DNA from: Candidatus Hydrogenedentota bacterium
GTDB lineage: Bacteria; Hydrogenedentota; Hydrogenedentia; Hydrogenedentales; SLHB01
Reading direction: 5' to 3'
Length of the DNA: 64,000 nucleotides
Assembly (NCBI GenBank): GCA_016215105.1
Contig: JACRLJ010000052.1
Coordinates: 1-64,000, forward strand
In this document: positions 50,727-64,000 of the stretch, piece by piece
Layout of the letters: the number at the start of each line of letters is the position of its first letter
Numbering within the stretch: position 1 is the first letter of the stretch
Made by a program: the position numbers and the translations under genes
The notes under the pieces: generated by a model
Database searches by the model: none
What the model was told of the DNA's origin: nothing
What the model saw: only the letters and a program-made list of their open reading frames with translations

Positions 50727-51132
50727 GCCCTATGCCTTCCGAAAGAGTCGCGCTATCGCGCATATACGCCAAGAAGAACTCTTATGTGCACGGCGATGAA
50801 CATCCCTTCCTGTTGTCCGTAGAAAACACCGCGTACAATTCCCCGAAGGCCAATCTGGGATGATTTGGTGCTTCCGGCCCCAAGTATCCCCACATCGCGG
50901 GGACTCGTCAAGTACTATCCAGACCCGCAACCGGGTCGAAAAGACACGGATACGTCACAGCGGCGGCGTCATGACAGGCAACTGGAGTGGCCAGATTGTT
51001 GATATTCCAGAAACAGGAGTCGTCCCGGCGGTACGCCCAGGAGCGCAGATACATCGAACGCGACGATAGGGAGGATGAGAAAGAAGTGACCGACGGTTAG
51101 CTTTGTAGTTCTTCTCGCCAACAGGTTGTGCG
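50727..51132. other. Intergenic region before the integrated element
   Basis: About 400 bases upstream of the kinase gene, up to the tRNA fragment. Only very short frames are present, the best being a charged 37-residue one opening with a GTG near 50980 (ending DREDEKEVTDG), which has no ribosome site. Nothing here is firmly supported. Confidence 0.5.
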
Positions 51133-51179
51133 TGGTGGAGGTGAGGGGGATCGAACCCCTGACCTCTGCATTGCGAATG
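51133..51179 (-). tRNA. 3' fragment of tRNA-Ala(CGC): attachment site of the integrated element
   Basis: On the minus strand the sequence reads anticodon loop TTCGCAA, stem TGCAG, variable loop, T arm with GGTTCGATC, acceptor CACCTCC, A and CCA. The 5' half (D arm, 5' acceptor and CTGCA stem) is absent; unrelated DNA follows instead. The break sits in the anticodon stem-loop, a favoured crossover point of tyrosine integrases. An integrase gene starts 181 bases away. So this is the displaced 3' half left by insertion, and a restored full tRNA-Ala(CGC) gene should lie at the far end of the element, beyond base 64000 (inference). Confidence 0.85.
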
Positions 51180-51310: not shown

Positions 51311-51329
51311 TGGTCACAGCGTGGTCACA
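51311..51329 (+). repeat. Direct repeat tggtcaca x2, 11-base period
   Basis: tggtcaca at 51311-51318 and 51322-51329, one helical turn apart, between the -10 box and the integrase ATG. Possible arm-type integrase site or operator. Confidence 0.5.
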
Positions 51330-51359
51330 ATCCAACCCCAACCACTGAGGGAGGGAACC

Positions 51360-52685
51360 ATGAAAGCAAAACTGGTACGCCGAACGGTTGACGCCCTAAA
51401 GCCCGGCAAGGAGCGGTATGACGTGTTTGACTCTGCGCTGCCCGGCTTCAAGTTGCGGGTCTCGCCGACCGGGAAGATGGTCTACCTGCTTCGGTTCAAG
51501 AGCCCCAACACTGGGTTGTGGACCCAGATGACCATTGGGGATGCGGCCGGCATAACCCCGGAGCAGGCGCGCAACGCGGCCAAGGCCTCACTTCGTATCG
51601 TTGCAGAGGGGCGCGACCCATTGGTTGAGAAGCGCGCGAAGCACGCCGAAGCTGCGGCCATGCCAACTCTCGGCGAATTCCTGGACGGAGAGTACGGGGT
51701 CGAGGTAAAGCATTCACGTAAGTCCGGCGAGGCCACCGTGGCGCGGTTGAAATCGACATTTAAGTCCTTCCTCAAGCGCCCTCTGAGCGGGATAGTACTG
51801 CGCGATGTTGAGAAGTGGCGCGTTGACCGGCTTAAGGACGGACGGGCGGTTACCACCGTCAACCGCGACGCGGCGGCGTTAAGAGCGTGTCTTTCCAAAG
51901 CGGTGGACCGGGACATTCTGCCGGCGCACCCGCTGCGCAAGTTCAAGCTGATGAAGATTGACCGGGCGCCGAAGGTCCGGTACTTGGGGACGATGACTGT
52001 TGACGGCAAAGAGGTGAGCGAGGAAGAAGCGTTGATGAAGGCCCTGGACACCCGCGAGGCCGAAATGGCCAACAAACGCGAGAACTACAACGTCTGGGCG
52101 CAGGAACGGGACTACCCGGAGCGGCCAAATCTGACGCACGCTGCGTTTTCCGACTACCTCAAACCGTTGGTTCTGACGCTGGTCCACACGGGCATGCGCC
52201 GCGGGGAAGCGTTCAATCTGGAATGGAAGGATGTGGATCTCGAGGCCCTACACCCGGCGCTGACGGTTCGTGGCGAATCTGCGAAGTCCGGGACGACCCG
52301 CGTTATCCCGCTGAACACCGTCGCGGTGGACGTCTTGAAGAAGTGGCGAAAACAAACGGGTGGCGTGGGGCTGGTGTTCAGGAGCCCCAAGGGCGGCGGC
52401 CGTATGGACAACGTTCAAACCGCATGGGAATCCCTCTTGACGGACGCGGGCATAAAGAACTTCCGCCTTCACGACTTGCGCCATACATTCGCGTCCAAGT
52501 TGGTCATGGCGGGCGTAGATCTGAACACCGTGCGGGAACTGTTGGGCCACGGCAGCATCGCCATGACTTTGAGGTACGCGCACCTGGGGCCACAGACGAA
52601 GGCGCTGGCCGTCGAGAAGATCGTAGCGTCGCGCAAGGCCGGTACAGTGATACCATTCACGGAGCCAAAGAAGCAGAATCGCTAG
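51360..52685 (+). CDS. Tyrosine site-specific integrase (DUF4102-type N-terminus)
   Basis: 441 residues from an ATG preceded by GGGAGGG. N-terminal arm-binding domain (VRRTVDALKPGKERYDVFDS, DSALPGFKLRVSPTGK), a SAM-like core-binding domain (about 95-190), then the catalytic domain with Arg280 (GMRRGEAF), His371 and Arg374 (HDLRHT), His397 (LGHGS) and Tyr406 (LRYAHL). The set R-H-x2-R-H-Y is complete, so it should be active. An insertion near residues 205-245 between the core domain and the first catalytic strand is longer than usual. It lies beside the tRNA-Ala fragment that it most likely recombined. Confidence 0.95.
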   Translation: MKAKLVRRTVDALKPGKERYDVFDSALPGFKLRVSPTGKMVYLLRFKSPNTGLWTQMTIGDAAGITPEQARNAAKASLRIVAEGRDPLVEKRAKHAEAAAMPTLGEFLDGEYGVEVKHSRKSGEATVARLKSTFKSFLKRPLSGIVLRDVEKWRVDRLKDGRAVTTVNRDAAALRACLSKAVDRDILPAHPLRKFKLMKIDRAPKVRYLGTMTVDGKEVSEEEALMKALDTREAEMANKRENYNVWAQERDYPERPNLTHAAFSDYLKPLVLTLVHTGMRRGEAFNLEWKDVDLEALHPALTVRGESAKSGTTRVIPLNTVAVDVLKKWRKQTGGVGLVFRSPKGGGRMDNVQTAWESLLTDAGIKNFRLHDLRHTFASKLVMAGVDLNTVRELLGHGSIAMTLRYAHLGPQTKALAVEKIVASRKAGTVIPFTEPKKQNR

Positions 52686-53917: not shown

Positions 53918-56122
53918 ATGACCACGGCAACGCGAACACCCTACACGCCGGAAGAGCTACTCGAACACTTTGAACGGGCGAAGCCACAAGGCCCAAACCG
54001 CTGGCGCGTGCTTTGTCCAGTTCACGTCGACACCGACCCAAGCTTGGACGTCAACTACAAAGACGGCAAATATCTCTTTGCCTGTCGTTCCCACGGCTGT
54101 TCATTCAAGGACATCGCCGCCGCGGCAGGACTTGAGACTGAACGATGTTTCCCCGACACAGGTAAGGGCCGGGACAACGGCCACTACAAAACCAAGCCGA
54201 AGGCCACGGCGGACGAATACCCCCCGCCGTGGGAGTGGAAGGACAGAGGATTACTGGAAGCCGTCTTTCCGTATCAGAACGAAGAAGGCGTCACTCAGTT
54301 CGAGGTGTTGCGCGGCAAGCCCTGGAAGGGTTTCAAAAAACAGCATCGGCAACGCCGGGCGGACGGTAAGTGGACAACGGACGGGACACGCCCACTGCCT
54401 TTCATGCTTCCAGAACTCCTCGAGGACGTGGCCATGGGCCGGACTATCTTTGTTGTCGAGGGGGAAAAGAAAGTCCTTGCGTTGCGCCAGTGGGGCTTTG
54501 CGGCGACGTGTTGCGCGGGCGGCGCAAAGAAATGGAAGCCCGAACACGCTGAATACCTGACCGGCGCAAACGTCGTGATTTTCCCCGACAACGACAGGCC
54601 GGGCCGCGAACATGCCGAAGCGGTGGCCAAGAGCTTGAGCGGGAAGGCTTCAAGTATTCACGTGGTGGCGTTGCCTGGTTTGCCGGAGAAAGGTGACATT
54701 ATAGATTGGCAAGCTGCGGGGCATACTCGCGAGGAGCTTCAGGCGCTGGTTGCTGCTGCCCCGGAGTGGATTCCCGTCGAGACTGCCACCACGCGCAGTG
54801 AACGCCCCACGTTAGCCAACTACCGGATCGAACCGACCATGGACGAATCTGGCAAGCCGCGGAAAGTCGCGGTTCCCTTGCCCGAAATCACACGCGCGTT
54901 ACTCGACGTGGCGGACGGGTGGCCGAAGCGCATCAACGATCGCCTATTCGTGGATACAGGCGGCGCGATTCGTCACCTGTCTACGCCGGACTCGCTATTC
55001 GCCTGGATTGGCGAAGGGCACACGGTGGCGTGGCCTGGGGGAACGGACGCGGACGGAAACACGTTGACACCCAAGGCGGAGTTTTTCGAGTCGCTACGGG
55101 CCAGCGTGGACGCGTTTCAGTCTGTTGAGGAATTCCCACACGAACCCGAGATCGCTGGTTCCTACTATGCCTGGAAGATTCTCACAAACTACAAGGCGGA
55201 CGGAGAGGCGTTGAACGGGCTTCTGGCCTTCTTCGACAATGCCGAGACACCGGCTGACCGTGTTCTGATCCGTGCAATGTTTCTGACTCCGGCATGGGGT
55301 GGTCTTGCCGGATTGCGGCCCGCATTCATCATCACGGCGCCAGACCGGGGTTACGGTAAGACCACACTTGCTGACGCTGTAGGTTCACTCTATGGCGGAG
55401 CGATTGACCTCGAAGCCGACGAAGCCCGCGACGAACGATTGAAGTCGAGGCTCTTGGGGGACGCGGCGCTATCGAAGAGGGTCCTTCGGGTGGATAACGT
55501 GAAGACAAGCCAGTCTTCAACGCAACTTGAGGCGCTCATAACATCAAGTGTCATCAGCGGCCACCGCCTCTATGCCGGAGAGACGGCCCGGCCCAACTAC
55601 CTGACGACGATTGTCACCGGCAATACCGTTCGGCTGTCTCGTGACCTGGCAGACCGGGCTTTCGTCATTCGACTGGCCAAACCCAAGGCGAGGCCGGGTT
55701 GGAGTGAGAACCTCGGGGCGTACCTGGAGAGTAGACGCGATCACATTCTCGCGGACATAGTGGCGGAACTGCGCAAACCCGTGGCGGCAACCGAAGCACG
55801 CGACCGGTGGCAGTCCTGGACGTCCAACGTCCTGGCGCGGTGTACGCCGGGCGCGGCGGCAATAGTGGCGGCGAACCAAGCCCGGCGCAACGAATGCGAT
55901 GACGATCTCGAAGAGGCCAGCTTGATACTTGATGCACTTCGGAGCCGGGGCCTTAGCTTCTTAACTGCGGCGGTAGCCACAACGGTGGTAAACGAGGCGC
56001 TACACGTCCAATGGACTACGAACAAGGTCACTCGACGCATTCAATCCCACGTCGAGGCCGGAAGACTATCAGGGATAGAACGGTATAACACCGGAAATAC
56101 GCGAGGCTGGAATGTTGCCTGA
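53918..56122 (+). CDS. Primase-helicase-like replication protein (CHC2 finger, Toprim, ATPase)
   Basis: 734 residues. Zinc-finger region CPVHVDTDPSLDVN, then CRSHGCSFKDI (residues 30-70); Toprim domain with VVEGEKKVLAL and the acidic VIFPDNDRPGREHA (about 175-270); a C-terminal P-loop ATPase (TAPDRGYGKTTLADAVGSLY; VLRVDNVKTS; ITSSVISGHRLYAGE; TIVTGNTVRLSRDLADR) typical of plasmid and phage-satellite helicases. Together these allow priming and unwinding at the element's own origin. A strong inverted repeat with ctgtcaga units lies directly after the stop and may be that origin. Confidence 0.92.
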   Translation: MTTATRTPYTPEELLEHFERAKPQGPNRWRVLCPVHVDTDPSLDVNYKDGKYLFACRSHGCSFKDIAAAAGLETERCFPDTGKGRDNGHYKTKPKATADEYPPPWEWKDRGLLEAVFPYQNEEGVTQFEVLRGKPWKGFKKQHRQRRADGKWTTDGTRPLPFMLPELLEDVAMGRTIFVVEGEKKVLALRQWGFAATCCAGGAKKWKPEHAEYLTGANVVIFPDNDRPGREHAEAVAKSLSGKASSIHVVALPGLPEKGDIIDWQAAGHTREELQALVAAAPEWIPVETATTRSERPTLANYRIEPTMDESGKPRKVAVPLPEITRALLDVADGWPKRINDRLFVDTGGAIRHLSTPDSLFAWIGEGHTVAWPGGTDADGNTLTPKAEFFESLRASVDAFQSVEEFPHEPEIAGSYYAWKILTNYKADGEALNGLLAFFDNAETPADRVLIRAMFLTPAWGGLAGLRPAFIITAPDRGYGKTTLADAVGSLYGGAIDLEADEARDERLKSRLLGDAALSKRVLRVDNVKTSQSSTQLEALITSSVISGHRLYAGETARPNYLTTIVTGNTVRLSRDLADRAFVIRLAKPKARPGWSENLGAYLESRRDHILADIVAELRKPVAATEARDRWQSWTSNVLARCTPGAAAIVAANQARRNECDDDLEEASLILDALRSRGLSFLTAAVATTVVNEALHVQWTTNKVTRRIQSHVEAGRLSGIERYNTGNTRGWNVA

Positions 56123-56124
56123 CC

Positions 56125-56231
56125 CTTCTGACACATTTGACACATTTTTTGATCCTACCCATTGCGCGAGAAGTAGGAGAAATATATATAGAAAGGGGAA
56201 GGATCAAAAAAACTGTCAGAACTGTCAGAAG
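56125..56231. repeat. Long imperfect inverted repeat after the primase gene, candidate origin
   Basis: Left arm 56125-56155 (cttctgacacatttgacac, then ttttttgatcc) and right arm 56201-56231 (ggatcaaaaaa, then actgtcagaactgtcagaag) pair over about 26 of 31 positions, around a 45-base loop rich in atatata. Each arm holds two spaced TGAC/GTCA units, as iterons do. Position right behind a primase-helicase gene fits a replication origin. Confidence 0.65.
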
Positions 56232-56301
56232 CGTCAGGGCGCTGGGGATACTCGGGCCGCTGGCAAAGGCACGGGTATGACGTGTTTCATGGGGTCACGT
56301 T

Positions 56302-57229: not shown

Positions 57230-57592
57230 ATGGGCGAAACAAAATGGTGCATATGCCCCGTGTGTGGGTTCGAGTCCGTCGGCAAGGTAGGGTGGCGCTG
57301 CTGGCGCGGGGAGGGGAACAAGACGCGCATGACGGACGATCACAAACAATGCCCCGGCGTGTGGGTTGAGTCGCCAAACCCGGTACCAGATAGCGAACGG
57401 CGGGCGATAGAGCAGGACCGGCTACGTACGCGCGAGTTGACGTTCAAGCCGACTAAGCGTCGCCGGCGTGACCCGGAGGACATTGCTGCTGGTGGTATTC
57501 GCTCTGCCTTTGGTCGAGAGTGGCTGGGCGTCTTGCGCGCCCACCGTCGTTCGTCAACAAGTACAAGAACGGCGAACGCAGACTTGACGTAA
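57230..57592 (+). CDS. Zinc-ribbon-like small protein of the element
   Basis: 120 residues. N-terminus has CICPVCGFESV and, 30 residues on, DDHKQCPGVW, giving a C-x2-C / H-x2-C zinc-ribbon pattern found in many phage-type proteins. The middle is Arg-rich (KPTKRRRRDPEDIAAG). The last ~25 residues overlap, in a different frame, the clear tail of an XRE-type HTH protein (57520-57663), so the natural gene may have been a longer zinc-ribbon/HTH protein now frameshifted. Confidence 0.55.
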   Translation: MGETKWCICPVCGFESVGKVGWRCWRGEGNKTRMTDDHKQCPGVWVESPNPVPDSERRAIEQDRLRTRELTFKPTKRRRRDPEDIAAGGIRSAFGREWLGVLRAHRRSSTSTRTANADLT

Positions 57593-57663
57593 TCGAGTTC
57601 CTCCAGGTGGCCAAGGCCATCGGCATCGACCCCGTCAAGTTCCTCAAGAAGCTGGACAAGTAG
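57520..57663 (+). pseudogene. XRE-type HTH remnant (C-terminal part)
   Basis: Frame reads VAGRLARPPSFVNKYKNGER, then RLDVIEFLQVAKAIGIDPVK, the second half of a Cro/CI-type helix-turn-helix. The first two helices are missing in this frame; LPLVE in the neighbouring frame just before an extra a at 57519 could be part of them. The piece is therefore a broken gene or the tail of the upstream zinc-ribbon gene after a frameshift. Confidence 0.6.
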
Positions 57664-57859: not shown

Positions 57860-58609
57860 ATGCCAAGTAATCGCCGTGAATTCGAGTTTAGGATAAAAGC
57901 GTTTACGCTGCATACAATTCCAATGAGTAGACTGGCAGAATACTTGGCGGATCTTGCGGCGCTGCTTGGTGAGCAAAAGAGTGTGCACTTTGTACGCCTT
58001 AAGGCGGGAAGCGTCAATATTGTCCATTCCATTGAGCCGGAGGCGGAGCCAAAAGTTCGCGCCAGGATTCGAACAGCAAAATCTGATGATTGGACAAATG
58101 AGGCGACAAGGGCCGTAAGAGCCATTGATAAGCGGCTTGCGGAAGACAACGCTTCGGGCGCGCTCGTCGGGCCTGGCGGGAAGAACATCATCAAGTTCCC
58201 TGGTAAGGATCGGTTTTCTGAGCCGTTGTATGGTCCATTCAACCAGCCCGGTTTCGTGGAAGGAATTCCGATCTGCATTGGAGGCAAGAACGACCCAGTC
58301 CCCATTCACCTTGAGGAACCGGGCCACCAGGCCCAAGTGTGCGCTGCGAGTCGGGGCCTAGCCCTACGAATCGCCCCGTACATCTTCACTGCCATCATTC
58401 GCGCGGAGGGAATAGGGCGGTGGCGTCGGGATTGCGATGGAGTGTGGATCCGCGATAAGTTCACGATCCAAGACTTTAGGGTTCTGGATAGGACACCCCT
58501 CACTGATAGTGTCCAGCAGCTTCGAGCGGCCTCGAAAGGGATTGGCGAATTGGAGAATCCCCTGGAAACAATTCAGAGCCTGAGGAATGGGGAACAAGTT
58601 ACTCATTAG
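57860..58609 (+). CDS. Unknown conserved protein paired with a PIN-domain gene
   Basis: 249 residues; the ATG at 57860 has AGAGGAG about nine bases upstream. SRLAEYLADLAALLGEQKSV, HFVRLKAGSVNIVHSIEPEA, ATRAVRAIDKRLAEDNASGA, GPFNQPGFVEGIPICIGG, GRWRRDCDGVWIRDKFTIQD. I recall similar proteins without an assigned function in mobile regions of other bacteria, but I cannot name a family. It ends nine bases before the PIN gene, which makes a two-gene unit. By position it may be an antitoxin-like or sensor partner, although it is much larger than typical antitoxins. Confidence 0.72.
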   Translation: MPSNRREFEFRIKAFTLHTIPMSRLAEYLADLAALLGEQKSVHFVRLKAGSVNIVHSIEPEAEPKVRARIRTAKSDDWTNEATRAVRAIDKRLAEDNASGALVGPGGKNIIKFPGKDRFSEPLYGPFNQPGFVEGIPICIGGKNDPVPIHLEEPGHQAQVCAASRGLALRIAPYIFTAIIRAEGIGRWRRDCDGVWIRDKFTIQDFRVLDRTPLTDSVQQLRAASKGIGELENPLETIQSLRNGEQVTH

Positions 58610-58618
58610 GGGAGCGCA

Positions 58619-59167
58619 ATGGTCACATTCGACGCTGACTTTCTATGCTTTCTTCTCCGGGAAGACCCCGGAGTCGTCCTCGACCCCACTTCGGGCCAGC
58701 CGGTTGAAAGGGCGAAAGAAAAAATCGAGCATCTCATATACACGCTCGAAAAGGCGCGGGACAAAATCTTGATTCCAGCGCCGGCATTGAGCGAAATCCT
58801 ATGTCTGTGTGGCCACGAAATGGACGAGGTGGTTGACGTTCTCCTTCGTAACTACGGGTTCGAAATAGCGCCGTTCGATATCATGGCGGCCATCGAGGCT
58901 GCTATTATTACGGGCCGAGCAAAAAGTAGGGGATCAAAAAAAGGCGCATCAAATGAAACGTGGGCAAAAGTAAAATTCGATCGTCAGATCATCGCTATAA
59001 CAAAAACCCGCCGAGCCGAAACGATTTACTCGAACGACACCACGCTCAAGAAATCAGCCGAGCGGGAGAATATCAGGACCGTGTCGGTTTGGGAGCTACC
59101 GGATGCGCCCCCCAAGCAAGCGGAGTTTTTCGATGATGACGATGCTGTAGTCTCAGAGCCTGATTGA
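58619..59167 (+). CDS. PIN-domain ribonuclease-like protein
   Basis: 182 residues. PIN-fold landmarks: FDADFLCFLL (first Asp), LIPAPALSEIL (Glu), KFDRQIIAI (Asp) and ETIYSNDTTLKKSA (Asp), then NIRTVSVWEL. All expected acidic residues are present, so it should be a working metal-dependent RNase, unlike the damaged PIN protein at 23554. The start follows GGGGAG. A C-terminal acidic tail (FFDDDDAVVSEPD) is extra. It forms a unit with the 249-residue protein upstream inside the element. Confidence 0.85.
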   Translation: MVTFDADFLCFLLREDPGVVLDPTSGQPVERAKEKIEHLIYTLEKARDKILIPAPALSEILCLCGHEMDEVVDVLLRNYGFEIAPFDIMAAIEAAIITGRAKSRGSKKGASNETWAKVKFDRQIIAITKTRRAETIYSNDTTLKKSAERENIRTVSVWELPDAPPKQAEFFDDDDAVVSEPD

Positions 59168-59273: not shown

Positions 59274-60008
59274 TTACTGTTGGTTGCGCGCGGCGAATTC
59301 GTTCCAGAACTCCAACGTGGCGTCGAAGTACTCCTCGAGATCCTTGTCTGTGACGTAGATGTCCTCGCCACCCGCCGGACGCCCAATGCGTAACGCGTTC
59401 GGGGCGTTGAAAAAAGTATCTTCGCTCAGGCCTGGAGCCGTGAACAGTTCCGGTCGAATTGCGTGAAGCTTGAGAGCTGAGACGCCTGGCCCGTGTTTTA
59501 CCGCGTTGGCCACGAGCCGCAATTCTTTCACCTTCGACCACGCGGCGACTTGGTCAAGGCAGAGTCCGCCGGCGGCTAACCGTTCCTCAAACTCCTCGAT
59601 CCGGTACAGTTTCTTGTGCACTTTCGGGTCATTGAGGGCGTCGTTCTCTTCATGTATCGACAGCACCCGTCGGCGGTGGAAACAAAGCATCTGCTGTTCG
59701 AGAAGGTGCCACAACATCACCGTTCCCATGTTAAGGACCGCCTGACGTACACGAGTGAGGCGTTCGTACAGTTCAAAACCCTGTTCTTGCGCCCACTCCG
59801 CCCACCAACTTCCATCATCGTTACCGTCTGACGGTCGCGACATCGCCCATTCCCACATTGCCTGCTGGTGCGCGGTGGCTTCTTCCTCGGCGTCTGGAAG
59901 GGAGGGCAACATCTTCGTCAACAGGGCATCGCGCAGACTCTTAATCTCCTTCGGATAGTTTTCTGCTATCCATGGCCCCCATAACTTACCATCGAGATGC
60001 AGCGCCAT
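59274..60008 (-). CDS. Accessory protein of the type I RM operon, possibly HEPN-like
   Basis: 244 residues, mostly helical. The motif KELRLVANAVKHGPG resembles the R-x(4-7)-H signature of HEPN-type RNase folds; QAVLNMGTVMLWHLLEQQML lies in the helix before it. Its start lies two bases before the hsdS stop on the minus strand, so it is the last gene of the hsd operon. Genes of this kind inside RM operons can be additional anti-phage effectors, but that is inference. Confidence 0.65.
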   Translation of the reverse strand: MALHLDGKLWGPWIAENYPKEIKSLRDALLTKMLPSLPDAEEEATAHQQAMWEWAMSRPSDGNDDGSWWAEWAQEQGFELYERLTRVRQAVLNMGTVMLWHLLEQQMLCFHRRRVLSIHEENDALNDPKVHKKLYRIEEFEERLAAGGLCLDQVAAWSKVKELRLVANAVKHGPGVSALKLHAIRPELFTAPGLSEDTFFNAPNALRIGRPAGGEDIYVTDKDLEEYFDATLEFWNEFAARNQQ

Positions 60009-60010
60009 GG

Positions 60011-61573
60011 TCAGTTTGCTCCTGCCCCGGACGTGAGTTCGGCCACGACGGCCTCCATGAGCTTCTCGGCGGTGGCGCGGGAGGCGGCGAGCTGGGCTTC
60101 CAGTTGGTCCACCAGGGCCATCAGTTGGTCCACCTTGGCGACAATGCGGCGCTGTTCGGCTAGGGGTGGGACGGGTGCGACATATCTTGTGACGCTATTT
60201 GCTGACAGGTTTGGTTGAGCCGATCCATTGTCGAAGCGGGTGATCAGTTCTCGCCCAAGGGGGCTAATCAAGTAGTAGTACGTATAGCGGGGCGTGAGAT
60301 TACAGCCTAGACGGATAATCACCAATGACGACGCTACAGCCCCCTCGATGAACTGATCGATGATTGCTGTCTTTCCCAGCGTGGCACCGCGCAAACAGTA
60401 AACAAGGTCGTCTTTTTGGACCTTTCCGTTCCTGAGGGAATCATATTTTGCGCGAGTGAGATAGTGCATGGAAGTGAGTGACAGTGTTCCACCCGGCTGA
60501 ATATGCCCGGTATTTATGAACGGTACCCCTGTTGGAACGTATTCGTTCTTGTTCGGGTAGTTCTTCCCTCGGTCTCCATTGATGAACTCCGCCTCAGACC
60601 CGAGCCTGCTCCAGCGCCAAGATCTGGGTAACTCAAAAGGGATTTCCTTTTCGGCAATTGGCTCAAAGCGCCGAAGACGTTTCGCTGTCGAAGGCACTTC
60701 CGCCGGTTCATCCTGCGGGTCCTGGGGGACGAGTTTGCCCTGGACGGCGAGGGTGAGGATGGACTTGCGGAGGTCGGCGGGCGGAATGGTATAGGACTTG
60801 TGGAAGATGAGGTTGAGGTTGGCCGGGGTAGGCGCGTCAGCAAAGGTGGCCAGAGACGCGCGGGCGAGTGCGGCGTGCCGGGTCACACGTTCCTGTTGCT
60901 GCGCCTCCAGGCGGTCACATAGCGCCATCAACTCGTCCACCTTGGCCACTATGCGCTTCTGCTCTGCGAGGGGCGGGACTACTACTACCAACTCCCGGAT
61001 GTCGCCGAGCGAAACGTTCGGCATCGCTCCTCCCCTGGCCCTAGCTTTTATCTTATTTGAGACGAAGGAGTCGAGTTGCATCTTCAAGAAAGAGGTGTCA
61101 AATGACGCAGCCACACCACGGATTATCGCGAGCGCTTGGTTAGTGTTTGCGGGAACATCTTTAGCGTTAACGATACAGGTTTTCCCAATTGTTCCCGCGA
61201 TGGAAAAGAGTACGTCGCCACTTTCGAGCTTGGAGCGCTTAAGAAACTCGTGAGTGGCAGCCGAAATGAACTGTACTATCGAGGAATGTTGAATGCTCCC
61301 GTCATTGATGTTCTCCACTTTGATGAACGGGATTCCGGACGGCTCATATTGGTGTCCGTATGACGTCGGTGTTGCGCCCTTTGTGATGAGTGATGCAATG
61401 CTACCTAGTGACTGCTTCGGCCAGGCAACGCTTTTCGAGCTAACTCGATCGCGCGGCGAGTCCAGTAACTTATTACCGATGGCCAAATCAAGAATCAGCT
61501 CCCGCATCTTCCCGACCGCGTTGGGCGCGTCGGCTAACTCATCGAACTTCTCGAAAAACGTCTCCAGCGTCAT
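60011..61573 (-). CDS. hsdS: Type I restriction-modification specificity subunit
   Basis: 520 residues. Two target-recognition domains, each followed by a conserved helix: PPLAEQKRIVAKVDELMALC after the first and PPLAEQRRIVAKVDQLMALV after the second. The recognition half-domains read GSIASLITKGATPTSYG and GSEAEFINGDRGKNY. Its ATG overlaps the hsdM stop (ATGA). It sets the DNA sequence bound by the M2S and R2M2S complexes; the target cannot be read from the protein. Confidence 0.95.
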   Translation of the reverse strand: MTLETFFEKFDELADAPNAVGKMRELILDLAIGNKLLDSPRDRVSSKSVAWPKQSLGSIASLITKGATPTSYGHQYEPSGIPFIKVENINDGSIQHSSIVQFISAATHEFLKRSKLESGDVLFSIAGTIGKTCIVNAKDVPANTNQALAIIRGVAASFDTSFLKMQLDSFVSNKIKARARGGAMPNVSLGDIRELVVVVPPLAEQKRIVAKVDELMALCDRLEAQQQERVTRHAALARASLATFADAPTPANLNLIFHKSYTIPPADLRKSILTLAVQGKLVPQDPQDEPAEVPSTAKRLRRFEPIAEKEIPFELPRSWRWSRLGSEAEFINGDRGKNYPNKNEYVPTGVPFINTGHIQPGGTLSLTSMHYLTRAKYDSLRNGKVQKDDLVYCLRGATLGKTAIIDQFIEGAVASSLVIIRLGCNLTPRYTYYYLISPLGRELITRFDNGSAQPNLSANSVTRYVAPVPPLAEQRRIVAKVDQLMALVDQLEAQLAASRATAEKLMEAVVAELTSGAGAN

Positions 61574-63051
61574 TCGTTGGTTCCGGCGGTGGCAGTGAGG
61601 GCGTGATGGAGTTCCTGTTTCAACGCGGCCCGAGTCTCCGCGATTTGGGCGAGGAGTTTTTCGTATTCCGGCAGGAGGTGGTCCACATCACCCGGACCCG
61701 TGTCGGGGTTGTGCGGGTTCTTGAGGTCGAGGTTGTAGTTGCCCGCCTTGATCTGGTCGATGGAGACACACCAGGCCTGTTCATTCTCTTTGCGCTTGGT
61801 ATAGGCGCCCGCCTTGTTCGGTTTACCCCACCATTCACGCTCGGCCTCAAACTCCTCAATACGGATGGGCTTGCCCTTGTTGTAGCTCTTGGCGCCGGGA
61901 GGGTAGGGGTGCTCGTAGTACCAGACCTCGGTGGTGGGCTGGCCCTTGGTGAAGAAGAGGAGGTTGGTGCGAATGCCGGTGTACGGGTTGAATACGCCGT
62001 TGGGCAGGCGGACGATGGTGTGCAGGTTGCAGTCCGCCAACAGCGCCTCCTTGATGCGCGTCTTGACGCCTTCCCCGAAGAGTGTGCCGTCCGGCAAGAC
62101 CAGTCCGGCCCGGCCGCCGGGCTTGAGGATTTTCATGAGGAGTACCAGGAAGAGGTCGGCGGTTTCGCGGGTACGGAACTCGGCGGGGTAGTTGGACTCG
62201 ATGCCGTCCTCTTCCATGCCACCGAAAGGCGGATTGGTGACGATCACGTCTACGCGTTCCTTGGGTGACCAATCGCGCAACGGGCGGGCTAGGGTATTGT
62301 CGTGCCGTACATTTGACGGCACGTCGATACCGTGCAGCAGTAGGTTGGTCATGCACAGGACGTGCGGCAGGTGTTTCTTTTCGATACCGGTGAAACACTC
62401 CTGGATGGTGTGCTCGTCGGTCTCGGTCTTAGCCTGTTTGCGCAAGTGCTCGATAGTGCAGGTGAGGAAGCCGCCGGTGCCGCAAGCCGGGTCGAGGACG
62501 GTCTCGCCCAGACGCGGATTGACCTGCTCCACGATGAACTGCGTGACGGCGCGCGGCGTATAAAACTCGCCTGCGTTTCCCGCGGACTGAAGGTCCTTCA
62601 GCAGCTTCTCGTAGATGTCGCCGAACATGTGGCGGTCGTCGGAGGCGTTGAAGTCAATCCCGTTAATCTTGTTGATGACCTGGCGCATGAGGGTGCCGTT
62701 CTTCATGTAGTTGTTGGCATCCTCGAAGGTCATACGGATGAGGCCGGCGATCTTGTCTGCGCCGCCGGTCAGGGATTTGAGCTTGGGCAGAAGCGTGTTG
62801 TTGACGAAGTCGAGCAGGGCATCGCCGGTGATGCCCTCGTCGTCCGAGGCCCAGGCTGACCACCGCAGGTGTCGCGGTAGCGGAGACTTATAGTTGTCAC
62901 GGAGGAGTTCGGTTTCCTTTTCGCGGTCGTCGAAGATCTTGAGGAAGAACATCCAGCCGAGTTGTTCGAGGCGCTGGGCGTCGCCGTAGGTCCCGGCGTC
63001 CTTGCGCATGATGTCCTGGATGGTCTTGACGATATTGGAGACGTTGGGCAT
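61570..63051 (-). CDS. hsdM: Type I restriction-modification DNA methyltransferase subunit
   Basis: 493 residues. N-terminal helical domain (RKDAGTYGDAQRLEQLGWMF), then an N6-adenine methyltransferase with the SAM motif VLDPACGTGGFL, catalytic NPPFGG, and family blocks GEFYTPRAVTQFIVE and GRAGLVLPDGTLFGEG. It makes the host-protecting methylation. It starts three bases after the hsdR stop and overlaps hsdS. Confidence 0.97.
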   Translation of the reverse strand: MPNVSNIVKTIQDIMRKDAGTYGDAQRLEQLGWMFFLKIFDDREKETELLRDNYKSPLPRHLRWSAWASDDEGITGDALLDFVNNTLLPKLKSLTGGADKIAGLIRMTFEDANNYMKNGTLMRQVINKINGIDFNASDDRHMFGDIYEKLLKDLQSAGNAGEFYTPRAVTQFIVEQVNPRLGETVLDPACGTGGFLTCTIEHLRKQAKTETDEHTIQECFTGIEKKHLPHVLCMTNLLLHGIDVPSNVRHDNTLARPLRDWSPKERVDVIVTNPPFGGMEEDGIESNYPAEFRTRETADLFLVLLMKILKPGGRAGLVLPDGTLFGEGVKTRIKEALLADCNLHTIVRLPNGVFNPYTGIRTNLLFFTKGQPTTEVWYYEHPYPPGAKSYNKGKPIRIEEFEAEREWWGKPNKAGAYTKRKENEQAWCVSIDQIKAGNYNLDLKNPHNPDTGPGDVDHLLPEYEKLLAQIAETRAALKQELHHALTATAGTNE

Positions 63052-63054
63052 GGG

Positions 63055-64000
63055 TTAGGCGGCTTTCTGGTAAAGGGCGGTTTCAAGCTCGCGAACGGCG
63101 GCGAGGTACTCTTGCTTGCCGCCGAAGATGCTGATGATTTCAACCGGTGTACCGAACGCGGTGAGCGGGTCCACCTTGAGGATTTCGAGGGACTCGACGC
63201 TCTTGATACCGCTGTCGGCGTACTTCTGGAGCAGGGCGTCAAGCACGGCGCGGGCCGCGTCGCCATACTTGCCGAAGATGTTGCGCTTCTTCACGCGCTC
63301 CGCGCGTTCTTTCCGGGTCAGCGGCGGTTGGTCGAAGGCGACATGGCAAATAAGGTCGAAGGCATCGTAGTCGCGCCCCACCTGCTCGGCCAGTTCGTCG
63401 AGGAACACCCCCTTGGCCGCCAGTTCGTCCAAGATGGCCTGTTTCCTCTCCGCGTCGTTCCAGACCGTGAGGAACTCGTCCAGTGAGGCAAAGGCGCCGA
63501 GAACGGTTTTTCGGGAATAGTCCTTGAGGGACTCCGTGATGAGCTTCCCGTTCTCGTCCATGTACTGAACGCGCTCGGTGACCACGAAGACGTTTACGTC
63601 GTTCACCACGTACTTGGTTGGGCGGGAGCCCGGAGTCCCACCGTCAATAGGCGGGTCGTAATCGATAATGACATCAACGGGCGGCTCGTCGTCGCGTCCC
63701 TCGGGCGGTTCATCCGGAGGGACTGGCGTCTCCTCGGGGCCTGGCTCGTAAATCTGAACGGGGTCGCCGTCAAAGGCGGGGTCCGCGAATAAGGCGGTGG
63801 CCCGCTTGAAGTCCATGATGGTGAAGAAGAACTTGTTGTAGTCCTCGTTGATGCGGGTGCCCCGGCCAATGATCTGCTTGAACTCCGTCATAGAGTTGAT
63901 GCGCTTGTCCAGAACAATCAAGTGGCAGGTCTGCGCATCGACCCCGGTAGACATCAACTGCGAGGTCGTGGCGATGACCGGGTAGGTGGATTCCGGGTCA
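63055..64000 (-). CDS. hsdR: Type I restriction endonuclease subunit, C-terminal part (5' end outside window)
   Basis: The frame is open to the right edge (PVIATTSQLMSTGVDAQTCH), so only the last ~315 residues are seen. Helicase motifs V and VI are present (STGVDAQTCHLIVLDKRINS, EFKQIIGRGTRI), followed by an acidic Pro-rich linker (residues with PGPEETPVPPDEPPEGRDDE) and an EcoEI-R-type C-terminal helical domain. The nuclease and Walker motifs are outside. First gene of the operon hsdR-hsdM-hsdS-accessory, read leftward. Confidence 0.95.
   Translation of the reverse strand, partial: DPESTYPVIATTSQLMSTGVDAQTCHLIVLDKRINSMTEFKQIIGRGTRINEDYNKFFFTIMDFKRATALFADPAFDGDPVQIYEPGPEETPVPPDEPPEGRDDEPPVDVIIDYDPPIDGGTPGSRPTKYVVNDVNVFVVTERVQYMDENGKLITESLKDYSRKTVLGAFASLDEFLTVWNDAERKQAILDELAAKGVFLDELAEQVGRDYDAFDLICHVAFDQPPLTRKERAERVKKRNIFGKYGDAARAVLDALLQKYADSGIKSVESLEILKVDPLTAFGTPVEIISIFGGKQEYLAAVRELETALYQKAA

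Follow-up and report, generated by a model that had tools for sequence, protein, structure and literature searches.

A linked gene pair encoding a predicted PIN nuclease and a partner with a predicted OB fold in prophages, plasmids and genomic islands

We describe two adjacent genes, A and B, that are truly linked and travel as one module on prophages, plasmids and genomic islands. B encodes a predicted VapC-like PIN nuclease, and A encodes a larger partner with a predicted OB fold. The pair is probably a little-studied virus-defence module and not a classical toxin-antitoxin pair. The best explanation that we can offer, at a probability of about 0.4, is a two-protein anti-phage module that is expressed in lysogeny and whose nuclease, B, would act at the replisome.

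The gene pair and its integrative element

The window is the 64,000-nucleotide stretch that we analysed, from a Candidatus Hydrogenedentota genome (contig JACRLJ010000052.1, positions 1 to 64,000). Gene A (57860-58609, + strand) starts with an ATG at 57860 and encodes 249 amino acids, and gene B (58619-59167, + strand) starts with an ATG at 58619 and encodes 182. Both reading frames are intact and lie where the initial annotation placed a 249-residue protein and a PIN protein, and 9 nt separate them. A purine-rich ribosome site precedes each (GAGGAG about 11 nt 5' of the start of A, GGGGAG immediately 5' of B). Gene A had zero matches in Pfam, NCBIfam and PADLOC. Gene B matched the Pfam PIN family at an E value of 1.5e-4, slightly under the gathering score, and apart from this generic match was absent from the same three libraries. 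In PHROGs, A belongs to phrog_19868 and B to phrog_21691, both families without a functional annotation.

The surroundings had been called a defence-rich element with a type I restriction-modification (RM) operon next to the pair, and the presence of an element is borne out. An exact direct repeat of 47 bp occurs at 51131-51177 and again at contig position 66268-66314, beyond the window, where it falls within a tRNA-Ala(CGC) gene (contig 66270-66345); the left, att-like copy is thus identical to the 3' part of that tRNA gene. A tyrosine integrase gene (51321-52685, + strand; phrog_1 integrase match, 1e-59) follows the left repeat, and then come an excisionase/HTH-like gene, a primase-like gene, A-B and, on the opposite strand, the type I RM operon. 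The repeats, the integrase and this gene layout show that A-B travels on a 15.2-kb integrative element that sits in tRNA-Ala, and the RM operon is cargo of the same element. The operon does adjoin the pair, but on the other strand and with one gene in between. That gene (59274-60008, - strand), downstream of hsdS and outside the A-B module, has a weak match to phrog_19541 (4e-5), and its product had no match in the defence library. HsdS (60011-61573, - strand) and HsdM (61570-63051, - strand) were assigned by family-library matches, and HsdR starts at 63055 on the - strand and extends past the window end. A related genome that is placed in the same taxonomic order (G065) also has this locus, as a Hydrogenedentes MAG contig.

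Three further features of the region were recorded. Directly 5' of gene A lies the C-terminal remnant of a repressor (SFVNKYKNGERRLDV...; 57553-57663, + strand), presumably of the XRE type, judging from the motifs of XRE helix-turn-helix proteins; the frame is stopped upstream, and the 5' part has been stopped or replaced. A 46-nt inverted repeat (56118-56163 and 56193-56238; 83% complementary, 29-nt loop) overlaps the end of the primase-like gene and could be a terminator or a replication signal of the element. Just beyond the element, a small chromosomal protein (contig 66649-67143) contains PPSQGELFGF, which resembles the tail motif of B described below.

Linkage and co-evolution of A and B

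About 100 A-anchored loci were compared, and the pattern search for A was built on a five-sequence alignment. They comprise 80 loci in bacterial genomes (Acidobacteriota, Pseudomonadota and Hydrogenedentota), 13 IMG/VR contigs, 4 distinct plasmid loci and 2 Pseudomonas phages with near-identical copies. B lies directly 3' of A at about 85-90 of these loci. The commonest junctions are overlaps of 4 nt (25 loci) and 1 nt (23 loci), with the two genes a few nt apart in others. At the other A loci, which include 14 listed individually, either the contig ends at A or B is absent or disrupted. In the reverse direction, A adjoins B upstream at 39/39 B-anchored viral loci, one of which is cut by a contig end. 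Whether homologues of the two genes would prove unlinked had been set beforehand as a check on the pair, and they are linked in both search directions. Since homologues keep the order and the close spacing, chance pairing is excluded and the tight pair proposed from the window stands.

The distances among A proteins track those among B proteins (mirror tree, r 0.79 against a maximum of 0.16 in 500 permutations), and dN is well below dS in both genes. A and B therefore co-evolve under purifying selection. No recurring flanking gene family and no conserved third gene was found near A-B, and close to the pair no single family is shared beyond a few loci, which makes A and B alone the unit. Neighbours of the PADLOC type were not clearly enriched (about 10/85 downstream and 6/99 upstream, against about 5/85 for distant genes of the same loci).

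The losses are one-sided. No intact B apart from A was found in the 35 genomes searched. Among IMG/VR contigs, intact B is absent at 3/11 A-anchored loci and A is absent at 0/38 judgeable B-anchored loci (Fisher p 0.009, from small samples that were differently anchored). This asymmetry only implies that A restrains B or that B needs A, and so it is compatible both with a defence function and with the main rival to it. According to that rival, the pair is an addiction module in which B is a VapC-like RNase toxin and A a large antitoxin that binds the tail of B, the whole serving to stabilise the mobile element. The persistence of A without B, the absence of B without A, the position of the antitoxin-like gene first and the overlap of the two genes all suit this arrangement.

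Predicted folds and the tail of protein B

The AlphaFold2 model of B, built with 57 relatives, has a mean pLDDT of 94. Its best Foldseek match is FitB (E 4.8e-6), and in VIA it aligns with a P. furiosus (Pyrococcus) PIN protein at Z 14.4 (129 residues, 2.5 A) and with many VapC toxins at Z 13-14 (best 14.1). All of 61 homologues keep D5, E59, E93, D121 and D140 unchanged; these residues include the acidic site D5/E59/D121/D140, which is complete, as had been read from the window. The VapC structures cover B from residue 1 to about 160, and residues 165-182 form an additional tail of low pLDDT. On the basis of these models and of the alignment, we assign B as a VapC-like PIN nuclease with an extra, predicted disordered tail.

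The tail carries a motif, Qxx[LMIF](x)[LF], that is placed after an LPxPP stretch and kept in almost all family members. In the window it reads QAEFF (B residues 167-171, codons at 59117-59131, + strand). Short forms elsewhere include QAELF, QEEMF, QTDLF and QGALF, and longer forms include QGKLPF, QGSLPI, QATLDL and QTSLKF, so that both known spacings of sliding-clamp motifs are found at one position. The six-residue clamp motif, QxxLxL/F, is the form of Hda and Pol IV. When we searched for Qxx[LMIF] followed by a hydrophobic residue directly or after one residue, 84/112 B tails contained it, compared with 13.8 among shuffled tails. Restricting the count to representatives with less than 50% identity gave 28/39 against 4.3 +- 2.0 expected, and in a control set of 996 neighbouring proteins a comparable motif was present in the last 30 amino acids of 7%. 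The motif is short and degenerate, and its strict form is absent in about a quarter of B proteins. The consensus for binding the bacterial sliding clamp, QL[S/D]LF, itself has a wide tolerance (PMC9690074). The B tail motif thus resembles clamp-binding motifs, suggesting that the tail may dock on DnaN.

Protein A was modelled with 85 relatives (mean pLDDT 91). Residues 124-210 of the model form a five-stranded OB barrel with a helix between strands 3 and 4, preceded by an N-terminal alpha/beta domain (about residues 1-115). The N-terminal domain holds the strongest sequence signature of the family, TIPMxRLAEYM...GS. Residues 127-210 match the yeast mitochondrial SSB Rim1 in VIA (Z 9.0, 83 residues, 3.5 A), and many SSB and PriB chains score about Z 8 against the OB domain. 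Such Z values are often reached by small folds, so the match speaks to fold and not to function. The predicted fold is that of SSB, PriB and Rim1, but A has no detectable sequence relation to these proteins and has an extra N-terminal domain. Sequence searches of solved structures with full-length A and with its N-terminal half gave nothing credible.

Against viral models, the best full-length Foldseek match of A was a DUF6575 protein (E 3.9e-8, TM 0.41). No sequence relation was found by hhalign, and the match is retained as no more than a lead. DUF6575 occurs in a defence system (PMC9519451). Two DUF6575 proteins with an A-like predicted fold and no sequence similarity to A are encoded on loci L178 (1486-2640) and L177 (1480-2091). 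A related gene encoding about 128 amino acids (ELPENCPP / YPENCPP...) comes before each of them, which suggests another two-gene unit.

These features bear on the addiction module in both directions. The fold and acidic site that B shares with VapC and FitB, in a two-gene operon with the partner first, are those of VapBC and FitAB toxins. In contrast, Pfam detected no known DNA-binding domain of antitoxins (AbrB, RHH, HTH, Phd) in 85 A proteins, whose lengths are 240-258 amino acids; the 249-residue partner combines an alpha/beta domain with a predicted OB fold, in agreement with the initial annotation that it is too large for a normal antitoxin. The clamp-like tail of B also lies beyond the matched VapC structures, and both spacings of its motif agree with the clamp-binding consensus, which argues against a tail made for an antitoxin.

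Genomic position, related systems and possible function

The pair resides repeatedly next to genes of lysogeny control, and repressor and regulator PHROGs are its commonest upstream neighbours. It directly follows a cI-like repressor gene on the same strand in Pseudomonas phage Ostro and the related Pacha_bin_1, and so has the place that rexAB holds in lambda. Six further viral loci carry a cI-like repressor gene on the same strand, 0.2-1.0 kb upstream of the pair. The pair is sporadic in E. coli (WP_000749484.1 for A and WP_001263856.1 for B), where it is present at >=99% identity in 32/5426 complete genomes. In two inspected E. coli genomes it lies in a P22-like prophage, between mnt and a gene for a gene-16-like ejection protein. 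In P22 itself sieA occupies exactly this slot, and other variable genes fill it in epsilon34 and CUS-3. The genes between mnt and gene 16 in CUS-3 and epsilon34 (L174 7006-8355 and L173 6492-7353) differ and are without functional annotation. In E. coli A1.S1.18, one of these genomes, the P22-like prophage that carries the pair (L182 6141-7399) is at another chromosomal site.

The mnt / gene 16 interval may be a general exclusion-gene slot of P22-like phages, and both this interval and the cI-adjacent position house exclusion functions that are expressed during lysogeny. A-B occupies the same slots as sieA and rexAB and is oriented with the repressor gene, but the proteins are unrelated. SieA blocks DNA injection (PMC10883804), whereas a nuclease pair would act later. 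The A1.S1.18 copy, in which A is intact while the annotation gives the PIN gene as truncated at its N-terminus, is in keeping with an addiction module.

The same positions weigh on a further alternative, an accessory replication or repair pair of the mobile element that would process, for example, RNA primers or flaps at forks. An SSB-like OB fold and a clamp-like tail would suit such work. However, in the phages examined the pair sits in immunity regions and cargo zones and not by replication genes; it also lacks a recurrent flanking family, and its distribution in E. coli is scattered. We regard this alternative as very improbable.

From these observations we infer a function in defence, most likely of the carrier's host against other phages, that would proceed as follows. 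The flexible C-terminal tail would dock on the host sliding clamp (DnaN) and keep B near DNA replication. A would probably recognise single-stranded nucleic acid at replication forks through its OB fold and would restrain or license B. Once an incoming phage had commandeered replication, A would set B free or switch it on, and active B would then cut RNA, or flap or single-stranded DNA, at the fork, so that phage replication is blocked or the infection aborted. Several points count against this scheme. Most PIN proteins are RNases, and an RNA target is left unexplained by tethering to the clamp alone; a shared OB fold, here a predicted one, does not establish binding of single-stranded DNA; and, as given above, the tail motif is short and degenerate and PADLOC-type neighbours are not clearly enriched. 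In its most specific form, a fork-directed immune module of prophages and islands in several phyla in which a clamp-tethered PIN nuclease, controlled by an SSB-like OB sensor, destroys competing phages as they replicate, we consider the proposal unlikely as it stands.

The nearest functional precedent is DS-5, a two-protein PIN defence system found with DefensePredictor and validated in E. coli in 2026, in which both proteins are needed and loss of the partner causes no toxicity; DS-3 is a further PIN defence system (PMC13092281). DS-5 shows that partner genes need not be antitoxins, which weakens the addiction reading, and we judge an addiction module to be rather unlikely. DS-5 also resembles A-B in combining a PIN nuclease with a larger partner that is not a simple antitoxin, and both occur in E. 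coli. The two may or may not belong to the same family. If they did, A-B would be DS-5 itself in other hosts, as the shared architecture of two proteins with one PIN nuclease would allow, together with the need for both in DS-5. Against this, the DS-5 partner is described as having DUF5830 and AcrIF4-like domains, and neither was found in A, the two being compared by description. DUF5830 (PF19148) did not match the pair in any of seven records when the E value was relaxed to 10, and HMMER found it in 0/85 A proteins, although the DS-5 annotation may use more remote methods. An AcrIF4 chain was absent from the sequence-profile matches of the A N-terminal domain, an absence that excludes nothing. 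Identity with DS-5 therefore seems improbable to us. The suggestion in the initial annotation that the module is undescribed holds for the curated defence and family libraries (Pfam, NCBIfam, PADLOC) and is perhaps too strong now that a PIN pair has been published (PMC13092281). Our literature search found no paper on A-B or on a PIN nuclease that binds the clamp.

Toxins directed at the sliding clamp provide a second comparison, and include SocB of SocAB and the RipA type (PMC9690074, PMC12795458). Like A-B they are two-gene modules whose effector apparently engages DnaN, which for B is predicted from the tail motif. They are not known as PIN nucleases, and the motif in B would tether a nuclease and not merely block the clamp.

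If the defence reading is true, A-B would join two ideas that have so far been separate, PIN nucleases as effectors of defence or addiction and the capture of the sliding clamp by toxins. Phage-borne immunity could then aim a nuclease at ongoing replication. The compact two-gene unit is already present in P22-like prophages of E. coli and in two sequenced temperate phages of Pseudomonas, which makes the proposal directly testable.
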